A stretch of DNA of 64,000 nucleotides from Porogramme epimiltina (Eukaryota > Basidiomycota > Agaricomycetes > Polyporales > Polyporaceae): positions 1 through 64,000 of the forward strand of contig FTLJ01000231.1 of assembly GCA_900155495.1 (NCBI GenBank), read 5' to 3'. The notes beneath the pieces were generated by a model. The model made no database searches, was not told where the DNA came from, and was given only the letters and a program-made list of their open reading frames with translations. Positions 3,080 to 61,185 of the stretch are shown here, piece by piece. How positions within the stretch are numbered: position 1 is the stretch's first letter; each line of letters begins with the position of its first letter. Position numbers and translations under genes: made by a program.

Positions 3080-3637
3080 GCTCTCTGTCCCCGTCATCAC
3101 AGTTTTGGACCTCTTGCTCCTCCGCACCTCTTCCCTCCACGCCCCTCCTCTCCCCCGCGCTTGGACCCGGCCTTTTATTAAGCGTTAAGATTGTAATCCT
3201 GTGCATATTGTCGATTTGTTCATCGCTGTTTCTCCTGCTTGCCTCCGCCCTGCCTTGGTCACCCCCCATGTCACCCCCGTCCGCTCTGATCGTACCTCGC
3301 TGCCCGTCGTCTCCCCGCACCTACCCGTACTCGTTTTATTGTCGCTTTCCTAGTTGCCGTTCCTGTCCCACCATAGCCCACCCCCTGCATCCGAGAACGC
3401 GCTCGCTCGGCGCTGAATCTTCCATCATACCAGGTCATATTGGCATCGTAGAGCGCGGCATTCGTACATATGTTCCAAGCAATGCATTCAATCGGCTGCC
3501 TCGCATCACACGCGCCAAGCAATAGAAGTGAGAGCCAAAGTGAATTTGTACAACAAGGTAACGACGTTATGGGAACATCCACGCCTAGGATGCAAGAGCC
3601 ATGTGCTGAGTTATCAGATAAGATAAGTCCGAGTTTC
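3080..3637. other. Convergent 3' intergenic region
   Basis: This is the space between the stop codons of the transcription factor (+) and NUP37 (-). A T/A-richer patch near 3171-3200 may serve in 3' end formation for the upstream gene. Only short ORFs in shadow frames are present and I see no RNA gene or repeat. Confidence 0.35.
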
Positions 3638-5691
3638 CTACGAGTCCACGCCAATATAGAACACGACGACGTCCCTCCCCACGGCCGCGACGATACGCGG
3701 GATACCGCGGCATGCAACGAAGTCGAACGAACGCACATACAGGGGCCGCTGCGCGACGTGGAACGCAGTCGGTTGCGCGTGCGGGTACGCCGCGTTGTGG
3801 ACGTGGATCACCGCACCCTTGGCGGGGCTGCTCGTCGAGACCGCGAAGTAATCTGGGTAGGTCGGGCACCACCTGCTCGAACGGGAAGACAATGGGCAGC
3901 GCGCCCGGGCACAACGTCAGCGAGCAGGAAACGTCTGTCGGAAACTCGAAGCAGGCCCCGTCCACTCCGGGCCCGCGACCGGGCACGGTCCCGCCCACCG
4001 GGCGGAAGGAGGGGAGGGGGGGGCTAGGCGCTCGGAGACTGTGCGGAGCCGCAGCTGTTACCGCTGCCGCTGTATTGTAGCATTATGGAGCATTGTGCAG
4101 AAAACGGTAACTGCTCCCGGGCCTCCCGTGGCATCATCAGCGCACCCGCGCGGCCTGCGAAGGCGGCGACGTGCGAGCGGCGCGAGGGCGCAAGGTTCGG
4201 GGGCGCAACGGGGCTACGGCTCGGGCAGGACCTACTGCACGCGGCGGGACACGAGGGCAGCCGTCGGTCGGGCGGTGCGGACGGCGCGGACGGTGCGGGA
4301 GGCGTAGACGGCGCGGGAGCGTGGCGGGTGGCGAGGGGAAGAAGGGGGATGGGAGGAAGGGAAGACATACCTGAATTGTTGTCCGCCTTCGGGAAAGCTC
4401 GCGCCTGTGAGGTATGGCTTGCCCCCGTAGAGGTTGCCCATGTCCCAGAGGGAGAAGCGCGCACCATACGCAGCACCCACGCTGTGTCGGACGGGACGCA
4501 AGCAGGATCAGTCAGTGGGAAGGCCAAGGCACACCAGAAGACAGGAGAAGGACGGGCGGGGCGGGGTGGCAGCAGTGAGGCAATTAGGGTGGCAGACAGG
4601 CAGCGCGACAGCGGCGCGGAGGGGCTGCGGCCGGGCCTGATGCCCCCTGTCGGGCCCCGCGAGCGGGTGCCATGAATGGAAGGGGAGGGGCGCATGCACC
4701 CGTTTGAACTCCGCGAAAACGAGAAGTCAAGGGCAGGGAGGGGCTCACTCACAAGTCTGCTGTGGGGTCCCGCCGCCAGGCGACCGAGCCGGACCATTTT
4801 GTGGCCATGCCAGAGGCGGAGTCTGCGAGGGCGCGCGGCTCGACGAGCTCTACGACGGCCTGGTTCCGCCAGGACTCCTGCTCGTTGTCATTCATGTCGG
4901 ACCGCCAGTCCGTGAGGAAGATCGAGCCGCGGCAGTCTCCGACGAGGACCTCCTTGCTTGTCGACGGGTGCGAGTCGACGCTCGTGAGCGGGTGGGGGAA
5001 GGCGATGACATAAGAGGTGGGTTGAGGGCGTTTTGGCGGAGATCTCCCGGGAGAGGGAGGCGAGGCGATGTCGAGGGCCGGATCGAGGTCCCAGACCATG
5101 AGCATCTTGTCATCTGTTGCGCGGACGAGAATGCGGTTAGCTCGGGGAGACAGTAAGGTTAAACGGCGGGGCGGGAGACGCACCGGAGACGGTAGCAACA
5201 TAGCGGCAGCTGTCCTCGCTCCGGCCGCCGCAGAAGGTCATGTCGTTAACCTTTCCATGGTGTCCGCTAAGCCCGCCACCGAAGGGAAAGATCTCCTCGT
5301 CTTTTGAGGCACTTTTTGAGAGAAGATAGAGGCTGAAATCGGAAGCGGCAACTGCTAATCTGCGCCCAGGTGAGCCCGGGCTGCGGATGGGGAGAGCGGG
5401 AAACGCACTCTATTGACCAGTCGTCGGTGGAGGAGGGAGAGCTGACGCGGGATGACCAGGCGACGGCGGTGATACGAGACCCAATGTGGAAGTTGGCAAT
5501 CGTCCTGGAGGACGACTCTTCCTGGGCAGGGATGTGGGCGAGAAGGAGAGAGGAATGGGGGGCAGGAGACGTACGATCTGAATGATCTCGACGGAATGGT
5601 CGCCGCCGATCGCAATGAGGTCGGCTGCGTCATCCTCGTAACATGCGCGAACGACGTGCACGGTGGAGCCGTGGGCGTGGCGGACGTCCAT
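3638..5691 (-). CDS. Nucleoporin Nup37 (WD40 protein)
   Basis: Probable Nup37, a WD40 beta-propeller subunit of the Nup107-160 scaffold of the nuclear pore. The exons in gene order are 5691-5575, 5521-5409, 5359-5184, 5113-4753, 4481-4371 and 3872-3638, coding 370 residues. The N-terminus contains IAIGGDHSVEI. Propeller signatures follow: ITAVAWSS, DDKMLMVWDL and FSLWDMGN. A splice junction restores FRWCPTYPDYFAV, a segment I associate with fungal Nup37, and the last strand reads GRDVVVFYIG. Introns 4 (271 nt) and 5 (498 nt) are much longer than the 49-70 nt norm of the other introns, but the frame across both is exact. It is divergently arranged with the small ORF and UMP kinase. Assignment rests on motif memory, so another WD40 scaffold protein is the alternative. 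Confidence 0.8.
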
Positions 5692-5916
5692 AGGTGCGGG
5701 GCAGGCGTTGCGGGGGTGCGGTGGGTGTGGGCGTCGGTGGCTGAGAAACTGAGACCCGGAGCACGGCTGGGGGGAGGACGCGGAGGGGACGCGTCGTGCA
5801 CGTGCGCGTGTGGGGTGCTTGTGCGTGTGTGCGTTGTGGCTGCGAGGCGTCGAGGCGCGGAGAGAGCGCGGGCCGTTGGAGCTGGCTGGCTCAAGGCTGG
5901 CTGTGTCGCCTTTGCG

Positions 5917-6093
5917 ATGTCTCCGTCTGGCAAGCCCAAGCATCCGAATCCGTTCCTCTTCGTCGCCATCTCCGGCCTCTCCTTCGTCGCCTTCTACGCA
6001 ACTCTCAAGTACAGGGCAGCCACACACCCTGCCTCCGCCCAGCCCCGCCAGCACGACCATCCTCTCGTCCCCCCTCGCCACAAGGACGCTTGA
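5917..6093 (+). CDS. Small single-pass membrane ORF (58 aa)
   Basis: A 58-residue ORF lies immediately upstream of UMP kinase: its TGA ends five bases before the kinase ATG. It has a positively charged head (SGKPKHPNP), one hydrophobic segment of about 18 residues ([18 protein letters not shown]) and a polar His/Pro/Arg-rich tail. This looks like a genuine N-anchored micro-protein rather than random sequence, but I do not recognise a family. It could be a separate gene, part of a bicistronic transcript, or an upstream ORF controlling the kinase. An additional in-frame ATG exists at 5596 but overlaps the first exon of NUP37 on the other strand, which makes the shorter form likelier. Confidence 0.5.
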
Positions 6094-6098
6094 TTGCC

Positions 6099-7033
6099 AT
6101 GCCCGTCTTCGACCACGCCAAGGTCACTGTGCTCTTCGTCCTCGGAGGCCCCGGCGCAGGTCCGTCTGTTCCTTTTCTCTATTCTTCTTTAACTCACCCC
6201 GTTTCGCCACCAGGCAAGGGCACCCAGTGCGCTAACCTCGTCCAAGACTTTGGCTTCTGCCACCTTTCCGGTACGTTTCCTCGTGCGCACTCCTTATACC
6301 TCGCTCATCTCCTCTCCCTCTTTTTCCAATAGCCGGAGACCTCCTTCGCGCTGAACAGCACCGCGAAGGATCCCAGTATGGCGAGATGATCCGCAGATAC
6401 ATTCGTGAGGGCCTCATCGTCCCCATGGAAGTCACCATCAAGCTCCTCGAGAATGCCATGTCCGCCGCCCTCGCAGAGAACCGCGAGGGTGAGGGTTGGC
6501 AAGACGGCAAGGGCCGCTTCCTCATCGACGGCTTTCCTCGCAAAATGGACCAGGCTCTCAAGTTCGACGAGGATGTTAGTTTGCACTATTCTGTCCCCCT
6601 TCTGCTCTCTTTCTCATGTTCTCCCGTCGCCTCGGCAGGTCTGTCAATCTTCCATGGTCCTTTTCTTCACTACGACCGAGGAGGAAATGTCGAAGCGCCT
6701 TCTCGAGCGGGGTAAAACGAGCGGGCGTGAGGACGACAACGAGGAGAGCATCAAGAAGCGGTTCCGTGAGTGTGTCGTTCGTTCCCTTGTGGCATTAATA
6801 TCTAAACATCATTCCCTAGGTACCTACAAGGAGACAACGATGCCTGTCATTGAGCACTACAGCAAGGAGGGCAAGGTTGCGACTGTAAGTCCACTCGTCC
6901 TACAACCCGCTCCTGTTCTCATCTTCTCGGTCAGATTGATGCCACTGCCACCATTGACGAGGTGCATGAGAAGGCTAAGGAGGTTGTACGCCAGATCTTT
7001 GCAGGGGAGGTTGGGCGTAACATCACTGCATGA
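6099..7033 (+). CDS. UMP/CMP kinase (uridylate kinase)
   Basis: Phosphorylates UMP and CMP with ATP in pyrimidine nucleotide synthesis; expected in cytosol and nucleus. The exons are 6099-6159, 6214-6270, 6333-6574, 6639-6765, 6820-6884 and 6935-7033, coding 216 residues, normal for the short NMP-kinase family. The P-loop GGPGAGKGTQC is rebuilt across the first intron. The NMP-binding part (AGDLLRAEQ), [12 protein letters not shown] and the short LID ([19 protein letters not shown]) are all present. The short LID and the GFPRKMDQ segment favour UMP/CMP kinase over long-form adenylate kinase. The start is the first ATG compatible with the family N-terminus; the small ORF just upstream may affect its translation. 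Confidence 0.93.
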
Positions 7034-47448: not shown

Positions 47449-48687
47449 ATGGATACCCTCCAGTCCTCCTTTCCAACCGTCGCCCTCCTAGGGTTCACGG
47501 GAAGTGAACAGACCACCGGCGCTCTCTACACCGCCCACGTCACTGGCCGGAAGGCAATACCCAGTCTCTACAACGCTCCCGGCAGCTATGCTGCCGCTGC
47601 CGCCTTCAACGCGCTTTTCAAGACACCTGTTTGGGATGGTCTCCACGCTCAGCCCGGTGTCAGTGTCGACCCTGCCGCTTTGGCTCCCTCTGAGGACACC
47701 ACGCCTGGTCCCAGATACACCGCCGTTAGCTCCGGCACCCGCATCCCATCCACCGGGCCGATCGCCAAACTCCTCATCGAGCACTCTCGCCGACTTCCTA
47801 TTACGACCATCTCGGGTCGTCGCACAACTCCTTTGTCTGTTACCATTGTCGAGCTCCCGGATGCCCCCGCCAGCGAAGACCATCCCGTTGCAAAGGTCTC
47901 GGCTCCCGTGATCATTCCAGTGTTTGCGAGCGCCGCTGCTGCTGCCGCTTCTGGAATCCACGGAGATTGGGTTAATATGTCTATGATTATATTCGGGATG
48001 ATTTGCGGCGGGATGTCCTCATTCGCCCTCCAGTCGGGGGACCTCACCTTCACTCGCCCCGTGTCCACCCCAGGCGTCCCTGCAGGCGATGGATATCTCG
48101 AAGTTGGCAATGAAATTATCGTCCTCAAGGGCACCGAGGCCGCGGTAACCTCTGTGACCCGCGGTCGTTTCTCCCTCCGTTACAAGAGCGAGGGCAGATA
48201 CAACATGATTTCAGCCTGTGGATCCCTCCTCACCGCTCAGTGCATCATTCAACTTCTCGTGGTCCCCTTCGGGACTGTATTTGGCCAATTTTGTTTCTTC
48301 CTCTCCCTAACCGTCGCCTGGATTTACAACTCGTACGTCTCACGCCAGGAGAAGACCGCATGGAAGCGTCTCGTCCTTGAAGACCTCCTCAAAGCGCCGG
48401 TTATGGAGCGTTTCAGCCTTGGGACACGCACGTCCGCTGCCGTTTTCATTATGCAGGAGCTTCAACCCGCGGACGTGGAAGAGCAGCTAGCTCTCCTACT
48501 CCCTAACAGCACACCAGTGTGGAAGACATGGCGCCAGGTTGTTGCGCGCGAGCTTCAGAGTGGGAACCCCAACTTCAAGGCCATACCGACCCCTGCCGCG
48601 TTCAATGCTGATGAAGACAGGCTCCTCAGGACATTGTTCACTGACGCTCAAGCCGCTGTTGATGCTTTCACGCAGTCCAAAATCTAA
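47449..48687 (+). CDS. Paralog array copy A: polytopic membrane protein, unknown
   Basis: A single-exon gene of 412 residues and the most diverged member of the five-gene array. It shares with the others an APGSY block, WDGL, GVSVDPA, SGT, and a central hydrophobic pair around residues 165-205. Further shared blocks are EIIVLKG, VTRGRFSLRY, a second hydrophobic pair (VVPFGTVFGQFCFFLSLTV, WIYNSY), LGTRTS and LLPN. It lacks the VAGFFGGDVAVSAM block of the other copies; the equivalent place reads GFTGSEQTTGALYTAHV. About four membrane segments are predicted by eye. No signal peptide, catalytic motif or known domain is recognised. No coding intron is needed; the 3'-terminal intron of copies B-E is absent. 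Confidence 0.8.
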   Translation: MDTLQSSFPTVALLGFTGSEQTTGALYTAHVTGRKAIPSLYNAPGSYAAAAAFNALFKTPVWDGLHAQPGVSVDPAALAPSEDTTPGPRYTAVSSGTRIPSTGPIAKLLIEHSRRLPITTISGRRTTPLSVTIVELPDAPASEDHPVAKVSAPVIIPVFASAAAAAASGIHGDWVNMSMIIFGMICGGMSSFALQSGDLTFTRPVSTPGVPAGDGYLEVGNEIIVLKGTEAAVTSVTRGRFSLRYKSEGRYNMISACGSLLTAQCIIQLLVVPFGTVFGQFCFFLSLTVAWIYNSYVSRQEKTAWKRLVLEDLLKAPVMERFSLGTRTSAAVFIMQELQPADVEEQLALLLPNSTPVWKTWRQVVARELQSGNPNFKAIPTPAAFNADEDRLLRTLFTDAQAAVDAFTQSKI

Positions 48688-50158
48688 GGGTCAGGACCCT
48701 GGTGAGCATCGTGCGGGCCCCCTCAATATCTACATTATCATCCACTATCACACGAGTGTAGCCTTACAACCTCAGCAGATCGACTACGATTTGTGAGAAC
48801 TTGGAGTTGAAAGCCACTGGTGTGCTGAGCTCTATAATTTGTCCGTGACGATACCCTCTACCGAGATTGGCCGAGAACTACTAGATAGACATTTCAGCGA
48901 TCTCTTCGTGTATTTTCTATTGTCTGACCTGTACTATGTTCCTGATCCGAGTCCGGTCCCAACTCGCTGCGCCACCCTTCCTCTCTCCCCCTCCTCCTCC
49001 TCCTCCCCCCCCTCCTCCTCCAGTCTTGTCTCGTAGCCTCTATCCGATCGTGCTCATGATTGGTCCGTGATACTTTCCTATCCCTATAAGACGAAATATC
49101 CTAGTATACGACTTATCCCGAAATTTGCAATGGAGCCCTTCAATTTGGCGCTCTGAGTCATACCCTTTTTGGAATCGAAGCGATGGTGCGCCCAAAGTAG
49201 GGCCGACCAGAATGAGCTGTACCCAAACCTCTTCTCTTCTGATCTAGGTCCAGTCTCCCCAAATTGCTGCTTTCATGGCCATTATCATGGCATTTAATGG
49301 GGTTCGCCGCCTCGAGTTCCGGCGTAGGTATATCAGGTCACCTGTTGCACCGCCTTGTGCCACCATGCTGCAGAGTCGCCCGCTGCAGCGGAGAACTATC
49401 CACAGCTTCTCGTCTACATGATTGAGATATCGACGCTCTGAACGGAGCGCTGCAATGCCACATACTCTGATGAAACTCTGCGTACAGGTCGGACAGCTGG
49501 CGTGGGTGGGGTGAAACCTGCTCTGCTACCCTTCAAGTAGTACTAATTCATGGAATGTATGTAGCGAGCAGCTCGTTGACACGCCACCCAGCTAATGGGC
49601 CTAAACAGCTAGCTACACCCAAACACGTGCAAGGCGGCGTGAACCCTCGGCAGCTACGGGGTGTCACCGTGTGTGTCTTCTATCTCGCTCGCCTTTGACA
49701 CGCATAGGCCACAGTGCGGTCTAGGTACGTTATATCGGTATCAGCCGCAGGGAGAGTGTGAACACGTTGTTCCGCCGGGGCGGATATAGATCGATAACCC
49801 TGAAATCCGCATATCCGGATCCTATGAAAGGCCCTAGACGCTGTCCTCACTCTTCTGTGAGTCGCGTGAAGAGGTGCTTCTGCGGCCGGGACTTACTAGT
49901 CCCTTTTTTTCCCTAGGGTCGACTGAACCGGAACCTTATATCCGCAGGTCTGGATAGCATTTCACTTACCCGAAGGGCGTGCCACTACGACCTTGCTCTT
50001 GTAGATCCTGCCCGTGCCGGCCAGCATGCTCATTCGCCACCACGCTGTATCCAGGCGCGAACTTGAAAGGAGCCATGAGTATAGCTTCCGTGACTCTTAA
50101 CAGCGCCGCTAGATGTTGAGGGTCTTCTTTCAATTCTCATCTGTTCGATCTCCCAACC
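48688..50158. other. Intergenic region between copies A and B
   Basis: About 1.5 kb without a supportable gene. It holds a CTC-type low-complexity tract near 48990-49021. I looked for remnants of the array motifs (PGSY, WDGLYPG, LGTRT) and saw none, so no decayed copy is evident. Confidence 0.35.
48985..49021. repeat. CTC/CCT low-complexity tract
   Basis: A short run of ctcctcctcctcctc followed by a C run and more ctcctc. It is a simple-sequence tract in the 3' flank of copy A with no coding support. Confidence 0.6.
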
Positions 50159-51598
50159 ATGCCCATCCCAATCGCCAAGCACGCTCTAGACAAACTCAAC
50201 AGTGCCGACTCGCGATTCAACCTCGACATCTCTGGCGTTGCAGGTTTCTTCGGCGGAGATGTCGCTGTATCCGCGATGGGAACTATTCACCTGTACCGCG
50301 GACGAAGGTGGCTTGGGTGGTATAACTCTCCAGGCAGTTACGACATCGCGAAAAGTTATGGTGTTCTCTGCAAATCACGTATCTGGGACGGCCTGTATCC
50401 TGGGGTCAACGTCGACCCTGCAGTTCTTTTCGGGCTCAATCACAAAACTGGCCCTGCCTATCGTGGCGTTCATTCCGGTACGGCTATGGCAAGAACAGGT
50501 CACATCGGGTACCTGCTTGCGGAAGAATGCAAGGATCTCAATCCCGTCCATACCGCGGTCGGAAGGGTGAGCTCAACTGTAATGGTCACCGTGGTCGACC
50601 TCAACGCAGTGCCGGTGGAATACGACGTTCACCCTGTGATCGCCGACCGGTTTGCAACGTACCTTGCGCTTGTACCCATATCCACCACGCTCGCAGCCTC
50701 CATCCTATCAGTTATCGTTGCAGGAGACTGGTATTCATTTGGCCTCATTCTATTCGGTGCTCTCGTTAGTGGATCGTCCTGCATCATCATCGGTTCAGCG
50801 AAGCTCCAAATCCGGCGTCCCGAACCGGCCCCGACGTCCCCACCCGGGAATGGCATCCTCGGCGCTGACAGCTCGAACATCATCGTCCTCCTTGGGCCGG
50901 AGCACGCGACAAACATCGTCACGAAGGGCGGCTTCCACCTTCACTTCAACGGCGAGCCACGATACAACATGATCGGCATCTGCGCACTCTTCCTCACAAT
51001 CCAGTTCCTCGCCCAGCTGCTCATCATCCCCGTGGGCACGCTCTTTGGGCAGCTCATGTTCCTCGCATCGCTCGCGGCGTCTTGGCTGTACACAGCCTTC
51101 CTCTCCTCGATCGACCGGGAGAGCCTCCAACGCGCGATCGTGAACGCGCAGGTCCTCCGAGACCCACCCAAAGTCAAATATAGCCTCGGCACGCGCACTA
51201 TGGGCGCTGTCTTTGCTCTCCTAGTCCTCCGGGACTCCTTTGAGGGCAAGCCCGACGCGCCAGATACGAACACCGCGCTCCGACGGCTCCTTGACGAGCT
51301 CCTTCCAAATGACACGCGGGATTGGACATTGTGGAAAGACATCGTCGTGCGCTCCATGGTCGAGCGAACCTCGATTCCTAACGACATGTCGGCCGCATCG
51401 AGTCACCAAGGCACGACGAACCTCTTGTCAACGCTATTGAGCGATGCTCGAGATGCCGTCAATCTGTTCGAGTCTAGTCAAGAGGAGAGGTGCGTCGCCT
51501 TTGATCTTTACGAAAGAGCCACTCATACCTACCCTCGCGTTTTGTCCAGACAATCGGCAGTATACAGTGACCAAGACAAACCACTGGTAACTGCCTAG
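50159..51598 (+). CDS. Paralog array copy B: polytopic membrane protein, unknown
   Basis: Exons 50159-51489 and 51550-51598 code 459 residues. The N-terminal domain contains ISGVAGFFGGDVAVSAMG at about residues 24-41, then GRRWLGWYNSPGSY, IWDGLYPGVNVDPAVLF and YRGVHSGTAMARTGH. Hydrophobic segments lie near 164-188, 191-213, 270-292 and 295-316, the last two separated by a short PVGTLFGQ turn. The tail has KYSLGTRTMG and LLDELLPNDTRDW. No signal peptide is visible, so both termini may be cytosolic. The 60-nt intron is a multiple of three and open, so retention would add 20 residues and still end at the same stop. Closest relative in the array is copy C. Function unknown. Confidence 0.85.
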   Translation: MPIPIAKHALDKLNSADSRFNLDISGVAGFFGGDVAVSAMGTIHLYRGRRWLGWYNSPGSYDIAKSYGVLCKSRIWDGLYPGVNVDPAVLFGLNHKTGPAYRGVHSGTAMARTGHIGYLLAEECKDLNPVHTAVGRVSSTVMVTVVDLNAVPVEYDVHPVIADRFATYLALVPISTTLAASILSVIVAGDWYSFGLILFGALVSGSSCIIIGSAKLQIRRPEPAPTSPPGNGILGADSSNIIVLLGPEHATNIVTKGGFHLHFNGEPRYNMIGICALFLTIQFLAQLLIIPVGTLFGQLMFLASLAASWLYTAFLSSIDRESLQRAIVNAQVLRDPPKVKYSLGTRTMGAVFALLVLRDSFEGKPDAPDTNTALRRLLDELLPNDTRDWTLWKDIVVRSMVERTSIPNDMSAASSHQGTTNLLSTLLSDARDAVNLFESSQEERCVAFDLYERATHTYPRVLSRQSAVYSDQDKPLVTA

Positions 51599-52576
51599 TC
51601 AAATGCTCACCGGCAGGACCCTATGGGTTTATTGTTTGCGTTTGGTTGTTGCTGGTACTTCGTCGTAGGCAGTTGGGAGAATACCTTGAAGAAGCGATGG
51701 AGACGCGCCGACTGGGTTGACCGTATCTGATGTTCCTCTGTTGACACTCTAAAATATAATGAACTGCTGAGGGAACCGGCGCTTATACCGATGCCACCTC
51801 TCTCAACCTGACCACCACCCTCCTACAACGTCCCATCCTCTAAGTTTCTGGCACGTAAACTATTTGCCGGCCAGCATACCATCCTAGAGACGAGGCAGCG
51901 ATGCCCGGTAACGGATCACGGAGCCGACAGCGCGAACGTTGTGTACGTTCCGGCTGTTTACAGCAACTGAAGTGCGCGTAAGAAAGGTGAGTTCGTCGTG
52001 AAGTTCAAATAATTAACTTTTCGATCACCGTTGTGCCCAAATCGCGGTATGAAAAGAGATTACGCGTATGCACAGCAGAGTCCCCGAACGGTGCGGTCCC
52101 GGTCCACCTCGCGGAGGCGGGCACTCCTTGCAGACCTTCGGCTGCCGGAGATAGATGGGATGTGCATCCTACCTCGGCCGTGTATATGCCGCTTCTGAGG
52201 CGGTTCGCCTGCATCCTGGACACTGACACACTATGGAAGCCTGTACACGCTGTTCATGCTCCTGTGTACCTCACAGGGCCCAACGGAGATGTTTGTAACC
52301 AGCATCTTCAAGAATTGTGAATGCAGGGGCGGCAAGTGTGTCGTTCGTACTTCTTTTGCTCTGTTGATGTTTTTAGAAACCTGACGCCCGGATTGAGCTT
52401 GTCTAAACCCTTGATTAGAACGCGCACCAGCTCTCTTCACAACGCCGCGCACTCTCCTCGTTTCTGGACGCCCTCAGGCTACGATGCGACTATGGCGAGT
52501 ACGGTATAACAGCATGAGCATGCGCGATATACAGAATGCGTAGAGCTCGCCGCTTACCTCCGTCTCACTCCACACC
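51599..52576. other. Intergenic region between copies B and C
   Basis: About 980 bases with several short ORFs on both strands and no recognisable motif. The last 100 bases before copy C should hold its core promoter. Confidence 0.35.
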
Positions 52577-54052
52577 ATGCCCATTCCACTCTCCAAGAAC
52601 GTCCTGGACAGGCTCAACAAGGCTGACTCCAAGTTCAACCTTGACATCTCCGGCGTCGCAGGCTTTTTCGGCGGCGATGTCGCCGTATCCGCTATGGGGA
52701 CCATCCACCTCTACCGCAACCGCCGCTGGCTCGGGTGGTACAACTCCCCCGGTAGCTACGAGATCGCGAAGAACTACGGTGTACTCTGTAGGGCGCGGCT
52801 CTGGGACGCGTTGTATCCCGGGGTCAACGTCGATCCCGCTGTACTCTTCGGGCTCAACGACAAGGAAGGCCCTGCATACCGCGGGGTCCACTCTAGGACG
52901 GCATTGACAAAAACGGGACACCTTGGGTATTTGCTGATGGGGGAATGCGACGAACTGCCAGTTCCTCCCAAACAAGAGCTCATGGACGGACGGAGGAGCT
53001 CGGTCACTTCAGTCACAGTGGTCGACCTGCACAACGTTCCTGCTAAATACAACGTCCGCCCCGCGGTGGACGATGTGGTCCCCATCGTGCTCGCCGTCAT
53101 CCCCATCCTCATCACCCTCGCTGCCGCGGTCCTTTGCATTATCATCGCAGAAGATTGGTTCTCGTTCAGTCTTATTCTGTTCGGGGCACTTGTTAGCGGT
53201 GCATCGTCTATTGTCATCGGATCGGGGAAGCTCGAGCTGTCACGACCGGAGCCCGCCGAGGGGTCACCCTCAGGGGACGGTGTGTTGGGCGCGGGCGGGT
53301 CGCACTTCATCGTCCTCCTCGGTCCAGAGCACGCAACAAATATCATTACGAAGGGCGCATTCCGCTTGCAGTTCGACGGCGAGCCCCAGTACCACATGAT
53401 CGGCATTTGCGCCCTTTTCCTGACCTTCCAGTTCCTCGCACAACTGCTCATCATCCCCGTCGGTACAATTTTCGGCCCACTCATGTTCCTCGTATCCCTG
53501 GCCGCGTCTTGGATATACAGTGCGTTTCTGTCTTCCATAGACCGCGAGAGCCTCCAGTGCAAGATTGTCAACCGGCAAGTCCTGAAGAAGCCCCAGAAGC
53601 TCAAATATATCCTGGGAACCCGGACCATGGCTGTCGCCTTCACGTTGCGGGTCCTTCGTGACTCATTCGATCAGGATCAAGAGGAGTCGCGGAAGGGCGA
53701 TGCCGACGCAAAGGTGCGGGGCGCCCTCGAGAAGCTTCTGGATGAGATGCTTCCGAACGACACTCCCGACTGGAGAGTGTGGAAGGAGTCGATACTGGGA
53801 TGCATCATCAACCGCGACCCTGACTTGAAGACGTCGGCGTTGGAAGAAAATAGCTCGCTCCTTAAAACGTTGTTCTCTGACTCCCGGGATGGACTACGGC
53901 TGTTCAACGACGTACACTTGAAGATGTGAGTACCAAATCATAACACCACTTATCATATATATCATAATGCAATGGTATTTCTTGTATTGTACAGACATAA
54001 GACCGTAGAAGGCGATCAGACCACAAGTGGAACAGAAGTCCCCCCCGCGTGA
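52577..54052 (+). CDS. Paralog array copy C: polytopic membrane protein, unknown
   Basis: Exons 52577-53925 and 53995-54052 code 468 residues. It is nearly collinear with copy B: LDISGVAGFFGGDVAVSAMG, RRWLGWYNSPGSYEIAK, LWDALYPGVNVDPAVLFGLN and KEGPAYRGVHS. The same four hydrophobic segments recur (for example ICALFLTFQFLAQLLIIPVG). The tail has KYILGTRTM, an acidic DQDQEESRKGD insert and LLDEMLPNDTPDWRVWKES. The terminal intron is phase 2 with a GTGAGT donor, as in D and E, and joins to a short polar tail ending EVPPA. Without splicing the protein would stop one codon after the junction. Recent duplication with B is inferred. Confidence 0.85.
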
Positions 54053-54945
54053 ACTTCACGTCGGAGCATTCGGCGTCGTCGGACACTTATCTGGGTTCTG
54101 CGTCGGCGGCGGTGATACTGATACGAGTAGGCCAGAATAGACGGACTGAGCGCTATGACGCACGTAGCTATTATGGTTGCTATATCTATTGTATTTTGCG
54201 TGGCAGCCGAGGCACTGCTCAGGTCAGAAGCGAGCCTTCGCAACTGTGTGCGTAGAAGGCTTCAAGGGAGTCTTTTCTGACGTCTGTGTCAATATCCGGT
54301 TCCGGGGCGGTGGCCGAGAGAACAAGGGCAGTTGTGCTCCTTGAGGGGATTCTGCGGCGATTGTGCACGGTGACAGCCTGCGGGGCCTGCGCGTGGCGGT
54401 GGTCGGGCGACAGCTGTGTCCTTTTGAACACGGGCTCGGGCGGAGCGCGCTCGTGCCCAGCTGGCTAAGCGAATTCCACTCCAGGCTTGGACGGCGAGGC
54501 GCGCACCGTAACCTGCCTTTCCTGCCACCGGTCCGTCATCCACTCCCACCCTCCGCGGCCTCTCCTAGGCTTCTTGCAGCGCCGCACACCGCACGCGCCA
54601 CGACATGAGCCTCCTATGCGGTGTCCAGCGCAAATGCCATCGATAAGGACCTCCGCCTAGGACGTTCTGCCAAGACTGCTCCTTATTCTAATGATCTTGA
54701 AGAACTTCGTCTATGGGCGCGCCGCCCACCAGCTCCGGGTACATGCCTCTGAAGAAGGTAGCCCACGAGGCCTGTCCGTCCTGTCCTAGGCTCACTGCCC
54801 GGCCGCCCGGCCCTCCCAAATATCTGTCCCGCCTCCGCTACGTCCCTCTCCGTCCCCACTCCCCCCCGGGCCCGTCTGGAGTCATTGCTGGGCCGTCTCT
54901 CCCTCCGCTCCGACCTAGTCATCCCGCCAATCCATCCCGCCCGCA
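54053..54945. other. Intergenic region between copies C and D
   Basis: About 890 bases. A minus-strand ORF at 54016-54243 has one hydrophobic segment followed by five Arg, but I cannot join it to a convincing gene. The 150 bases before copy D are strongly C-rich and probably its leader. Confidence 0.35.
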
Positions 54946-56378
54946 ATGACAATCCCCCGCATTCCTCTTCAGGACTCCGACATCAGCCTCGACATAGGAG
55001 GCGTGGCCGGCTTTTTCGGTGGCGACGTTGCCGTCGCGGCCATGGCCACCGTCCACATCTATCCGGGCAGGAAGTGGTTGGGATGGTACAATACCCCCGG
55101 CAGCTACGAGATCGCCAAGCGGTTTGGGCAACTCGGACGCACCCGCTTCTGGGACGGCCTTTATCCCGGTGTCAATGTTGAACCGGCGGAGCTCCTCGAG
55201 CTCGACGGCATCATGGGCCCCAAGTATCGTGCGCTCCAGTCCGGGACCGTCATGGACCGTACCGGCCACCTTGCCCATCTCTTCACGCAAGAGTGTAAGG
55301 ACATCCAGGAGCTAGTGGACTGGGAAGACCCCAAAGACGAATGGCGCAAGACGAAGCCCGTCGACGTTACCATCGCCACCCTTAGCCACGTTCCAGAGAA
55401 GGAGGAACGTCCCCGCATGAACGACAACCACAGCGTTACAGCTAAAGGCCTCCTCGCTCTCATCCCTATCTTCGGCTCGTCCGCCTGCGCCATCTCATGC
55501 GCCATCTTCCGCGACTGGATCTGTTTCTCCATGATCCTCCTCGGCATGTTCGCCAACGGCATTTCGTGCTTCGTCATTGGCCACGGCACCCTATTCTTCA
55601 CGCATCCTGATCCTGCCAAGGGCGCACCTCCCGCCCACGGGTTCCTCGACGGTGGCGAGCAGATCGTGGTCCTCAAGGGCTCCGAAGGTGCCGTAAATCC
55701 GGTGACCAGAGGGCGCTTCTACCTCCGGTACACGGGTGAACCCGATTACCACGCCATCGGGGTCTCCTCGTTCCTTCTCACCGTGCAGTTCATCGTGCAG
55801 TTGCTGCTCGTTCCTCAGGGTGAAATTTTCGGGCAGGTCATGTTCTTGACTTCCCTGGCAGTCTCGTGGATATATAACTCCTATTTGTCGTCGCTTGACA
55901 AGGAGAGCATCCAGAGGCGCATCCTGGTCCGGAAAGTGCTGTGTCAACCGACAATGCGCAAGTATCGGCTTGGCACACGCACCAGTATGGTCGTCTTTGT
56001 GCTCCTCGTGCTCGCGACGCAGGACCAAGACAAAGCCTCGGCGGTAGAGATGGAATCGTTGCGCAAACTGCTCAATGATCTCCTTCCCAATGACACGAAC
56101 GTGTGGCGGGTGTGGAAAACCAGCGTCTTGGCCAAGATAGAGGCTTACTTCCACTCTGGGGAGCGTCTCATCTTTGACCACCAACATGACGGCGATGCCC
56201 TGCTCGTGGACCTCTACAAAGATACGAGGGCGGCCGTCGCTGCCTACGAGAAGTACTGCGAGTGAGTGAAATTGGTCTTTCTCCTGACGCGCTAACCCAC
56301 TAATCATCTACCCCTCGTAGGCTTCCTCAATCGACCGCATCCCCTGGGTCTCCCACCGACGAGAAGCTGCAAAGGTAA
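54946..56378 (+). CDS. Paralog array copy D: polytopic membrane protein, unknown
   Basis: Exons 54946-56261 and 56321-56378 code about 457 residues. Motifs: LDIGGVAGFFGGDVAVAAMA, RKWLGWYNTPGSYEIAK, FWDGLYPGVNVEPAELLELD and MGPKYRALQSGTVM. Later blocks are EQIVVLKGSEGAVNPVTRGRF, the paired hydrophobic segments around VPQGEIFGQVMFL, WIYNSYLSSLDKES, KYRLGTRTS and LLNDLLPNDTNVWRVWK. The Leu-Asp pocket and GPKYRA spelling pair it with copy E. The terminal intron (56262-56320) is phase 2. The second exon either stops at 56378 or splices again from 56374 to 56430 and ends at 56487, giving an alternative tail. Cys-rich TM1 (SSACAISCAIF) differs from B/C. Confidence 0.83.
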
Positions 56379-57023
56379 ACCTGCGTTCCCTCCGCGTGTA
56401 ATAGTCCAGCTGACCCTTGTCGTCAGCGATAAGCGGTTCTCGACCGTGTCTACTGTTGTCGGTAATGAAGTGGCAGACATGGTTTGAACGTCGTGCCCGG
56501 CCACGCGCACACGCTCCATCCAGTACGTTCACCGTCAGCGTGCGTATCGATATAATAGCTCATCTAGCATGGGTTACTAGCTCTGTACCCACTGTTGAAG
56601 CGTTTCGCGTGCCATCCGGATGGCATGCGAATTTTCCATTCGTCATGGTCTCTCTCTATCTAGGCCACGTCTCGCTACTCTCTTGATCACGCTCTCGTCC
56701 GCTGTGTACGGTTTTCCTCATCGCATATAAGCTCTGACATCGTCACAATCTGTATCAGTCAATGTAGATCATACCCTCACGCATTTATATCCTAGCATTT
56801 ATACTACAATGTATCGTGTCTCTACTTTCGTGTCTCAACTGTCGCATCATCAATGATATCTGTCTTGCTTTTTCGTCATTGCTCTTCACATACCTGGGTG
56901 CCTCAGTCGTATTCCGACAGTATTGTGGGGATGCCACACATAGTGAACGTCAAGGACAACTTGGTCATATACAGTGCAAGTCAAACGAATGTGTTAGCTA
57001 CGGCGCCCATATGGTGCACGTCC
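56379..57023. other. Convergent region after copy D
   Basis: About 645 bases between copy D and the stop of the PLC-like gene. It may include an alternative third exon of copy D (56430-56487). The remainder is AT-richer, with no other support for a gene. Confidence 0.35.
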
Positions 57024-58468
57024 TCAGAACCCGTTAAGCTTATCCACGGCAGCCATGGCCTGCCCAACGTTCACATAATCCATGAGGATGAAGCTCGGGT
57101 TGAAGCCCTTCCCGCTGAGCGGCGCGCACCCAGCCACGTTCGCAAGGATCCTACGCACGTTCCAGAAGCGTTAGCGCGAGACACTTTATCGCATGAGGTG
57201 ACACAGGGCACTCACGAGGAGACACTGTTCGTCGTCGCAGCGTCCGAGCGGTCGCTGAGGAGGATGCCCGTGCCGAGGAGGTTGATGTCAAGGAAGTGGT
57301 TGAGGAGGTACATGTGGTCAGACGTCGCGAGCGACCCGCTGATGCGGTCGATTGAGCACGGGAAGGTATCGTCCGTCGAGTCGTACGGCGGCTCCCACAT
57401 CTGGGGCGCTATGCGTGAGTACGCGTGAAACGGCGAAGGGAAAAGCGGGACAGCGCACCATCTGGAACTCGGAGAGGATGTAATTGACGGAGCCGTCTGC
57501 GCCGTAGTCCATGAATACGACGACACGCTTGCCCGAGTCGATGAGGGAGCCGAGCGTCGGCCACTCGGTGCGCTTCATGGGCGTGTGCGGGGGCACGTAC
57601 GCGAGCGACGCGATGCCAGAGTTGACGAACGCGGGGGCCCACACGTCCGTCAGGGACAGGCCCTCGGGGTTCGTGAAGAGGAGGGTGATGACCTCATTCG
57701 GGTTCGCGTCGAGCCAAGTCTTCACAGTCTTAAGGTAGTCTACAGACGTAAGATCAGGGAACGCGCTATAAATGCAGGTTTGACCGCGACATACTCTCGA
57801 CAGTTCCGCCATCGAAAAGGAACTAAGATGGTCACAGATGGGGCTCAACCTTTCTCGTGTGTGAGCAAAGTAGATATAAGCTTACACAGTCTACACAGCC
57901 CGTTCGTAAGTCAAAATAAGACGCAATATAGATAGTAAAGCTCACTAGTGTGGCAGAAGTGGATCACCCCGTCGTTCCTGCACGGACAAAGGACATCAAA
58001 TCTTAATGTCATCGAGACGGAGAATATTAAATTGCTCACATGTGTGCTTGAGCTTGCAGCATACGCACACCGAGGTTGAGTTGGGCGGTGATGTCCACCT
58101 CCTGGTTACGCGCCACTATGTTGCCCAACAAAAATCAGCGGAGGCCAGCAGTGAGGGGGAAACACCTCTTACGTGCGAAGATGTTGTCGGTGGCAGCATA
58201 CGAGTCATGCGCTGTCGTAACACGGACAAATGAGGGAGAAGCATAGGAACACGCGAGAAAGACACGTACAGCCGGCAAAGGTGACGTTGCCATAGCTCTT
58301 GCTACAGAGCTCGGCGTGACCATTGCACACGGTTGCACTATGCACAAATCAGCGCGATGAGAGGTTGAGTGAGGCGCGCACTGCGAACCGTTTCTCTGGA
58401 GCGACTGCGGCGCTGTAAGCGGCAAAAGGTAAGGAGAGGAGGGCGGCGCAAAGTGTGGCAAAACGCAT
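57024..58468 (-). CDS. Secreted PLC-like phosphodiesterase
   Basis: Predicted extracellular enzyme of the PI-PLC X-domain-like superfamily. Exons in gene order: 58468-58389, 58337-58270, 58211-58173, 58115-58040, 57977-57946, 57890-57886, 57822-57795, 57739-57459, 57400-57216 and 57150-57024, coding 306 residues. A signal peptide (MRFATLCAALLSLPFAAYS) is followed by a dibasic EKR site. The two expected active-site His lie in GSHDSYA and HFCHT. Further motifs are KTWLDANPNEVITLLFTNPEG, DSGKRVVVFMDYGADGSVNYIL, FPCSIDRISG and DHMYLLNHFLD. A 5-nt micro-exon is required to join CHTN to FDGGTVE in frame. Substrate unknown. It lies antisense between copies D and E of the array. A TATA box lies about 100 bases upstream of the start. 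Confidence 0.85.
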
Positions 58469-59753
58469 GATGAGCTATGGGCCGTGTGGTGGGGTATCTG
58501 GGGGTATAGAATGCGACCTGCTAGACAAGAGGGCCGCGGAGGCACAAGAGTCCATGGGAAGGGCTTTATATGACGGGTGAATGCCACACAAACGAGCATG
58601 TGGCCGGGAATGCAGAGACCATCAGAAGGCGTAGTAACGGCTGGCCTAAGAGGAATATCCAAGCTATCCGCGCAGCTGCTTTAGGGAGCTATCTACACAC
58701 CCTCACGGTCGAGAAGAATAGACATTTGATTAGCAGAAGCCATGGGAGAGGACTGCGCTCAGAGATATCGAAGGAACAGTTAAGCAGAACCCTTTGTGTA
58801 CCTGTTGGAGCTCTTCCTTCAGTTGAAGAGATCTGAGGGAGAGCCGGAGAGATGGCAAGTCCGCTGGTCGTCGTCAGAATCAAGGGACGCCAGGAACGTT
58901 TCTCTTCCGTAGCAATGGGTGACCCTTTCAGCCACCCGATGGACGGATACGCCACGTGATAGACGCGCTCACGTGCATGTCACGGGGAGAAACAGCATTT
59001 GTCCTTGATTGGCAATTGGTCTCCAAGATCTTAGAAGTCTCTTGGCGCGATAGACCGTTTACTTTTAGGCTGCCTCGATGTGGAACTGCATTCGCAATGG
59101 GAAGCATCCAAGGAATCCCCAAGGCGCTTACTTTGTCCCAGGACTATACCGTAGAGGACGAGTGTCCAGGACGTTGATAGTTGTACAAGTCCGAGAACAA
59201 ATAGTTGTTTTAGTCTCGTGAGCGCACAGCGAGCTCTGTAGCACGATCTCTGACAAGTGTCCCCGAAGTCCGACATCCTCGGCCAATGTCCTGAAATTGA
59301 TCAGCACGCGGCACACTGGATCGCGCAGCTATCCCCATACACCGGGTGAAAAAACTTGGGCTGTGTGCGTGGTTCTTGGGGTATGAGTGTTGTGACATAT
59401 AAGGGAGATAGGTAGGGCATGGTGCACTACTTGTGCTTGAAGCTACAAGTTGTGCTATGACGACGAGGATGCTACTTATCTCGATCAAGAGAATGAATAT
59501 AGAGAGGATCGCGGGTGCCTCGAAGTCGTGGCGGTGTTATATAGTTGCCTCGTTTTTGGCGTGGCACTACTGTTGGCATCACCTCCCCGCCCCGTTGTTC
59601 TTTTGCTCGACTCGGACTCTCGCATAGCTGTCGTTCCCAGCATGAGGCAACCCAGCGGCAATGAGCCTTTCTTTCCTCCGCACCCCGTCCCACCCTAATC
59701 TCCCCTCAGCGACTCTCCCTCCTTCATCACTCCGGCTCCGGGCTGACGACTCC
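58469..59753. other. Divergent region between PLC-like gene and copy E
   Basis: About 1.3 kb holding the promoters of the PLC-like gene (-) and copy E (+). Short ORFs occur on both strands without motifs. A catataag element near 59395 is about 360 bases before copy E and may be too far to be its TATA box. An in-frame ATG at 59661 could extend copy E. Confidence 0.35.
58565..58570 (-). promoter_or_regulatory. TATA box of the PLC-like gene
   Basis: The minus strand reads TATAAA about 100 bases before the PLC-like start codon, a typical fungal spacing. Confidence 0.5.
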
Positions 59754-61185
59754 ATGCCGGCGCCTCTAATTCCCTTGAGCGACTCGGATCTCAATCTCGA
59801 CATCTCCGGCGTCGCAGGTTTTTTCGGTGGAGATGTTGCCGTCTCTGCGATGGCGACCGTCCATGTCTATCAAGGGAGGAAGTGGCTTGGATGGTACAAC
59901 TCGCCAGGCAGTTACGAGATTGCAAAACGCTACGGTCAGCTTGGCCGTTCCCGCTTCTGGGACGGTCTCTATCCTGGCATCAACGTCGACCCCGCAGTCC
60001 TCTTCGAGCTCGATGGTATGAACGGCCCCAAGTATCGTGCCGTCCACTCAGGCACCGTCATGTCCAAGACTGGTCACCTTGCCCACCTCCTCATACAAGA
60101 GTGCAAAAGCATCCCCCCTACCAACATTCACTCCCTGCACCCCTCCCACACCCGTATCACTACCCCAGCATGCGTCACTGTGGTCGACCTCACCCACGAG
60201 CCCCCGAGAGAACAGCACCCCCGTCTCTTTCGCGATTCGACCAGCCCTCTCGCTCTCATTCCTATCCTCGTCTCGTGCGTCACCTCTGCTGCCTGTGCAT
60301 ACTACCGCGACTGGTTTTGCTTTTCGATGATTGTCCTCGGCATGGTCAGCAGTGGCTTGTCCTGCTATGTTATTGGGACCGGCGTATTCACATTCACTCA
60401 CCCCCTCCCCGCAAAAGGAGCACCGCATGGAGATGGAGTCCTTGAGAAGAGTAGCGAGGAGATTGTCATTCTAAAGGGACCGGAAGGCGCGATCAACCCC
60501 ATTACGCGTGGCCGCTTCTCGCTCAAATACTCGAGCGAACCTGAATATCACAACATTGGCCTGTGCTCCATGCTCCTCACTGTACAGTTCCTTGCTCAAC
60601 TCATCATCGTGCCCCAAGGCGAAATCTTTGGACAAATCATGTTCCTTACGTCGCTCGCCATCTCCTGGATGTACAACTCGTATTTGTCCTCACTCGACAA
60701 GGAGAGTGTACAACGCCGCATCCTCGTCCAGCAGGTGCTCCAAACGCCTATGATGCGCAAGTATCAGCTCGGCACGTGGACCATCCTTGTCGTATTTGTA
60801 TTGCTCGTTCTATCCCCTGCGGACGAAGAAGCTTTGCGGAAGGTGCTGGATGACATGCTCCCAAACGAGACCGTGGTGTGGCGGTATTTCAAGAATAACA
60901 TCCTCCATGAAATCCGTAAAATTTCGACGGACGAGAAGACTGCGTTTATCCTCGACAGCGCGATCATCGATGGTTTTGAGCTCAGCGATAGAACACTGCT
61001 CCAAACGTTATACCACGACGCCAGGACGGCGTACACCGCATACGTTGAGTGAGTAACAGCCTAATGCTACAGGATTGTCTTTGTTGCTGATCCTCCCCAC
61101 CAGGCTATATCTTCGAGGTCCCCGGAAATCTGACTGGGTAGCGCCGTCTCCCACAGAGATGCATCACAGTGGAGCGTGTGCATGA
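59754..61185 (+). CDS. Paralog array copy E: polytopic membrane protein, unknown
   Basis: Exons 59754-61048 and 61104-61185 code 458 residues. The start at 59754 aligns with the start of copy D; an in-frame ATG at 59661 would add 31 residues. Motifs: LDISGVAGFFGGDVAVSAMA, RKWLGWYNSPGSYEIAK, FWDGLYPGINVDPAVLFELD and NGPKYRAVHSGTVM. Later blocks are EIVILKGPEGAINPITRGRFSLKY, the hydrophobic pair around VPQGEIFGQIMFL, WMYNSYLSSLDKES, KYQLGTWT and LDDMLPNETVVW. The phase-2 terminal intron matches B, C and D and leads to a 27-codon polar tail. TM1 is Cys-containing (SCVTSAACAYY) as in D. Function unknown. Confidence 0.85.

Follow-up and report, generated by a model that had tools for sequence, protein, structure and literature searches.

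A cluster of five paralogous genes in Porogramme epimiltina belongs to a conserved, undescribed family of predicted membrane proteins

The gene array and its surroundings

The window analyzed here, a stretch of 64,000 nucleotides from contig FTLJ01000231.1 of the polypore Porogramme epimiltina, carries five paralogous genes (A to E), all on the plus strand within positions 47449–61185, as follows from a listing of the frames on both strands between 46500 and 62500. Copy A (47449–48687) is one uninterrupted frame of 412 amino acids that has no need of an intron; in copies B, C, D, and E, the frame runs across short GT-AG introns predicted toward the 3′ end, one or two per gene. Copy B (50159–51598) consists of exon 1 (50159–51489), a predicted intron (51490–51549), and exon 2 running to the stop at 51598, while copy C (52577–54052) is built of exon 1 (52577–53925), a predicted intron (53926–53994), and exon 2 with the stop at 54052. 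Two introns are predicted for copy D (54946–56487), at 56262–56320 and 56375–56426. In copy E (59754–61185), exon 1 (59754–61048) is followed by a predicted intron (61049–61103) and by exon 2 ending with the stop at 61185, exactly where the end of this gene had been placed from the first reading of the sequence. The predicted exon 2 peptide of copy E is ELYLRGPRKSDW, and the motif ELYLRG spans the exon junction. Similar peptides are found in gene models of related species: among five NCBI-named E-type proteins compared at their ends, four show an ELY-like continuation (P0005, P0006, P0017, and P0007, in which it reads ELYLRGPQSSDW), the only one devoid of it being P0004. A short CCT/CTC-rich repeat tract (48980–49025) lies between copies A and B.

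All ten pairs of A–E proteins are homologous across most of their length, with 34–65% identity and BLASTP E-values from 0 to 3.5e-71; for B and C, identity amounts to 65–66%. Because every pair aligns with an E-value of at most 3.5e-71, the homology is far beyond chance and the array is real. The long frames together with these alignments thus bear out the original prediction of five homologous genes on the plus strand. It is also very unlikely that the frames are spurious, given about 18 genomic places and 729 database homologues of the family (see below).

The sequence blocks listed in the original prediction are indeed present in A–E and follow one another in the same order, though two details have to be corrected. 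The N-terminal block, believed to be exclusive to B–E, has a degenerate counterpart in copy A, GFTGSEQTTGALYTAHV, and the relative P0122 bears GFVGGDQSTSALSTAYV there. The TRGRF block was held to be common to all copies, which is not true for B and C, where it is degenerate (TKGGF and TKGAF, respectively). Copy A, in turn, has degenerate versions of GWYN and WDGLYPG.

The array is not continuous, as a minus-strand gene of several exons (about 57020–58480, with the start near 58470) separates D from E. We take this gene to resemble a secreted PI-PLC-X-like phosphodiesterase; the scanned pieces of it gave no Pfam match, and its partial relatives are located on contigs C646, C132, and C483. It was not found at the other family loci fetched. 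As for the flanks, conserved genes had been expected on both sides of the array. Upstream this is the case: conserved Pfam domains are present in five of the six ORF pieces, namely NUDIX, malate dehydrogenase, SDA1, and, twice, GalT, and these five are ordinary housekeeping genes. Downstream the expectation is not supported, the single ORF piece scanned there having no Pfam domain.

Distribution and history of the family

In the genome of P. epimiltina itself (41.9 Mb in 926 contigs), 22 matches were found, corresponding, after merging by eye, to about 18 places. Of these places, five are on the contig of the window (C191), four on C357, two on C408 (in pieces or at the contig end), and one each on C407, C80, C419, C341, C380 (near the contig end), C251, and C374. 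Two adjoining copies on the minus strand of C357 (L010:2121–4178 and 4997–6979) exceed 530 amino acids due to a long insert that separates the LGTRT helix from the PND motif and is strongly acidic in the first copy; the two copies gave no Pfam match. The copy on C251 (L018, about 3185–4039) is broken by three in-frame stops, aligns poorly in its middle part, and is apparently decaying, and that on C374 (L019:3632–5182) is a very diverged member with 28% identity to E.

Copy E has at least 729 protein homologues at E ≤ 0.01. Among the best 120 of these 729, the matches named by organism are hypothetical or uncharacterized proteins of mushroom-forming fungi, which, among the matches listed, we assign to Polyporales or Boletales; they belong to the same family as A–E and bear no functional name. 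At least 27 database homologues were found for copy A and at least two (E ≤ 0.01) for the C374 copy, one of the latter from Cyclocybe aegerita, which we take to be an agaric (Agaricales); in both searches the roughly 8,000 candidates with the most words in common were scored, and the counts are lower bounds. Among the matches listed, the family thus presumably covers two orders, Polyporales and Boletales, and a trace of it occurs in Agaricales. A scan of genomes of prokaryotic species yielded 153 pattern matches and no relative.

The original prediction depended in part on the existence of intact orthologues in related genomes, and many full-length ones were found. Copy E is 77% identical to proteins of the Dichomitus squalens BD311DRAFT_865121 and Lentinus tigrinus L226DRAFT_179376 type and 53% identical to GSI_13453 of Ganoderma sinense, while copy A shares 60–61% identity with the A-type proteins of Dichomitus and Lentinus and 59% with GSI_13452; query coverage for the example orthologues from these three species is 99–100%. 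The Ganoderma boninense protein P0134 (A0A5K1K321), 59% identical to copy A, bears the UniRef name “Alcohol oxidase” and has no precomputed Pfam domain; the name is probably wrong.

The history of the family was followed in a tree built by a quick method, with SH-aLRT support only, from 86 chosen rows, comprising 72 of the 149 returned database proteins and, from the own genome, 14 of about 18 places; the fragmentary or broken copies on C408 (two), C380, and C251 were not included, nor were the majority of the unnamed database rows and part of the named ones. Copy A belongs to an old A subfamily, in which it is joined by the named A-type proteins from other polypores (15 rows, 100*), whereas copy E clusters with proteins of the E type (15 rows, 98*). 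Copy D joins the C80 copy, its nearest relative in the own genome (77% identity), and Epithele typhae (99*) within a 17-row set (95*) that also contains the C357, C407, and C341 copies along with proteins of Fomes, Daedaleopsis, Ganoderma, Cerioporus, Polyporus, and Lentinus. The remaining two, B and C, form a pair of their own (100*), each being nearest to the other, a result to be read with the sampling in mind, as the homologues of copy E available to the tree were the best 120 of 729 and B/C orthologues of other species may be missing from these. Long branches are seen for C374, C357d, C419, C341, P0148, and P0149, and the joining of the last two was flagged as possibly false.

Of the named A-type homologues, 15 are placed on a contig, and 14 of these share it with a non-A family member, the exception being P0141; such sharing is a proxy, read from contigs of equal size within the tree rows, some of them several megabases long. 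In Ganoderma, locus tags of family members are adjacent or nearly so (GSI_13452/13453 and V8D89_010766/010768). Because A, D, and E group with genes of other polypores and 14 of 15 A-type homologues share a contig in this sense, the cluster looks like an old part of a dispersed family with a local B/C duplication, rather than a recent local burst; only B and C make up a clearly local pair. The earlier view of a local, lineage-specific expansion is therefore not upheld, given that the A, D, and E subfamilies are common to other polypore genera and relatives occur in Boletales and Cyclocybe.

Selection was assessed by the NG86 method, bearing in mind that dS is near or beyond saturation for every pair except D/C80. 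The values obtained were dN 0.25, dS 1.65, and dN/dS 0.15 for B/C; 0.24, 1.52, and 0.16 for C357a/C407; and 0.14, 0.43, and 0.32 for D/C80, the last pair giving 0.14 and 0.49 with a second method, YN00. The higher dN/dS ratio of D/C80 fits the loss of part of the WDGLYPG block in the C80 copy. For C357b/c, D/E, A/E, and B/E, dN is also lower than dS, but dS of 2 or more makes these pairs uninformative. The three informative pairs indicate purifying selection on average, so that of the original claim of a family “under selection” only the purifying kind can be retained, and for these pairs.

Predicted structure and the conserved membrane core

None of the A–E proteins reaches a Pfam or NCBIfam cut-off. 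When 56 family members were scanned singly against Pfam, 13 families appeared at E ≤ 1, each in no more than two members and with a best E-value of 0.0089, and five longer or diverged copies located elsewhere in the own genome gave no Pfam family at E ≤ 0.1. No PDB chain was matched in sequence by copy E alone or by a profile of the 56 sequences, nor did Foldseek find a significant match in the PDB for the AlphaFold2 models of E or A. The description of A–E as multi-pass membrane paralogues without a recognizable domain, made initially from the sequence, is thus backed by comparisons at the levels of both domains and folds. In the literature searched, no paper was recognized as treating the family, nor any with the orthologue identifiers or prefixes sought. 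Taken as a whole, the A–E family is real, conserved, and undescribed, and it is older and wider than originally held.

The AlphaFold2 model of copy E has a pLDDT of 89.8 and a pTM of 0.86; for copy A, the values are 86.1 and 0.76, and the order of the elements is nearly the same. In copy E, both the model and hydropathy place two hydrophobic hairpins: hairpin 1 (60240–60377, plus strand) with TM1 at residues 163–183, a turn at 184–186, and TM2 at 187–208, and hairpin 2 (60549–60692, plus strand) with TM3 at 266–288, a turn, and TM4 at 291–313. The predicted helices are 21–23 residues long, the turns comprise just 2–3 residues, and the hairpins are connected by a link of about 57 residues (209–265). 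Strands are predicted in the soluble parts of both models. The helix that follows hairpin 2 in copy E (316–328) has a hydrophobic moment of 0.07 and is not amphipathic, as calculated for this copy only.

Of the twelve stretches scored in the 56 sequences, conservation is highest in TM3 and TM4. In copy E numbering, Q282, P287, G293, F297, L301, W305, and Y307 are invariant in 56 of 56 and Q278 in 55, and the intramembrane polar residues T276, Q278, Q282, S300, S304, Y307, and N308 are invariant or nearly so. This region provides the family signature, QFLAQL..VPQG..FGQ.MFL.SL..SW.YNSYLSS, which, along with the collinear blocks and a C-terminal LLPND-like motif followed by W, makes up the family traits. 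The signature is recognizable in 11 of 14 own-genome copies; it is also whole in D and altered at the turn in C (PVG, FGP). Its constancy should not be overstated: the PQG turn varies in A (PFG), B (PVG), and C (PVG), FGQ varies in C (FGP), and the diverged C374 copy retains the signature only in part. Further along the chain, D16, H37, D70, D79, H108, D186, H216, D227, E244, R252, and D315 are nearly invariant charged or polar residues, and among Asp, Glu, His, Cys, and Lys, D422 near the C-terminus alone is invariant across all 56 sequences. The mean number of Lys and Arg is 15.5 in the stretch 39–162, 5.3 in 209–265, 5.7 in 314–341, and 9.5 in 358–432, compared with 0.3 and 0 in the two turns; acidic residues outnumber basic ones on average in the soluble stretches 1–38, 209–265, and 358–432.

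Possible role and comparison with known systems

A–E are best read as a conserved cluster belonging to an undescribed family of integral membrane proteins found in mushroom-forming fungi. Four membrane-spanning helices in two hairpins are predicted for each of them. Since both turns are very short, the N-terminal region, the link, and the C-terminal region should all be on one side, and the abundance of Lys and Arg in these parts, along with their near absence from the turns, suggests the cytosol according to the positive-inside tendency. The acidic character of three of the soluble stretches (1–38, 209–265, and 358–432) runs counter to this argument. The cytosolic strands and helices would probably pack into one mixed α/β domain.

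It is on the buried polar residues that any proposal on the role of these proteins depends. Their conservation within TM3 and TM4 would favor a functional site over a plain anchor, and we tentatively propose that these two-hairpin, four-TM proteins with a cytosolic control domain work as oligomers in channel function, transport, or lipid handling, a reading that is possible though short of probable. The hairpins would mediate assembly into an oligomeric membrane complex, as a channel role would require with four TM helices per chain; the polar set of hairpin 2 (Q278, Q282, S300, S304, Y307, and N308 in copy E, together with P287 and G293) would line a conduction or substrate site; the cytosolic part would exert control; and the paralogues might differ in regulation or substrate. 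Against this, the proposed role derives from buried polar conservation, with no relative of known function in sequence or structure, and conserved glutamines and serines within the membrane could equally stabilize helix packing. A bolder version, in which a genuinely new fold threads two TM hairpins through a single cytosolic α/β domain and an ancient polypore cluster encodes small channels, transporters, or lipid-handling proteins of a class not seen before, seems doubtful.

The hairpins could instead wedge into or organize an endomembrane, with the cytosolic part recruiting partners, i.e., the proteins could act as membrane-shaping or scaffold proteins. Two hydrophobic hairpins whose link of about 57 residues leaves both termini on the same side would suit such a role, but at 21–23 residues the helices could cross the whole bilayer, the helix 316–328 of copy E is not amphipathic, and the strongest helix conservation is largely polar, which a wedge does not need; moreover, neither Reticulon nor REEP is among the 13 Pfam families found at E ≤ 1 in the 56 members. 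This makes the alternative somewhat unlikely. A membrane-embedded enzyme, for instance, a lipid-acting one with its active site at the junction of the cytosolic part and hairpin 2, is unlikely: the many nearly invariant charged and polar residues from D16 to D315 and the predicted soluble strands agree with it, yet no catalytic motif has been recognized and no fold relative found, and D422 is the one residue among Asp, Glu, His, Cys, and Lys that never varies in the 56 sequences.

A recognition or signaling family (self/non-self, host, or fruiting signals) diversifying by duplication might be expected to be multi-copy and partly clustered and to include members such as the decayed C251 copy with its three stops and the diverged C374 copy. 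However, turns of 2–3 residues leave no place for a sizeable ligand-binding domain on the far side, the informative pairs are on average under purifying selection, and orthologues are recognizable across genera, which makes this quite improbable. The view that a lineage-specific gene of no wider importance has recently expanded in tandem, at this locus alone, to which only the starred B/C pair points, is highly improbable, as A, D, and E fall into separate subfamilies with members from other genera, mostly on shared contigs, and most own-genome copies sit outside the array.

Large conserved families lacking annotation are a main gap in reading mushroom genomes, and the A–E family is multi-copy, conserved, and has confident models unmatched among solved structures. 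Should its fold prove genuinely new, the family would represent an additional class of membrane proteins, confined, as far as seen, to fungi.

Among known systems, reticulon and REEP proteins use hairpins that wedge into or organize endomembranes. A–E resemble them in having two hydrophobic hairpins and termini on one side, but their helices are longer, strands are predicted in the soluble parts, the conserved core is polar, and an amphipathic helix after hairpin 2 is absent (copy E); the Reticulon profile was not among the 13 listed families. Tetraspanins and similar four-TM proteins have a large structured loop on the outer side between TM helices, unlike the model of copy E, where both hairpin turns comprise 2–3 residues. 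The nearest in kind is Snowball (SNB1), described as a protein with seven TM helices and DUF6533 that belongs to a conserved basidiomycete membrane family of unknown mechanism (PMC10949477). A–E differ from SNB1 in that DUF6533 is absent from the 13 families listed for the 56 members and four TM helices are predicted instead of seven.
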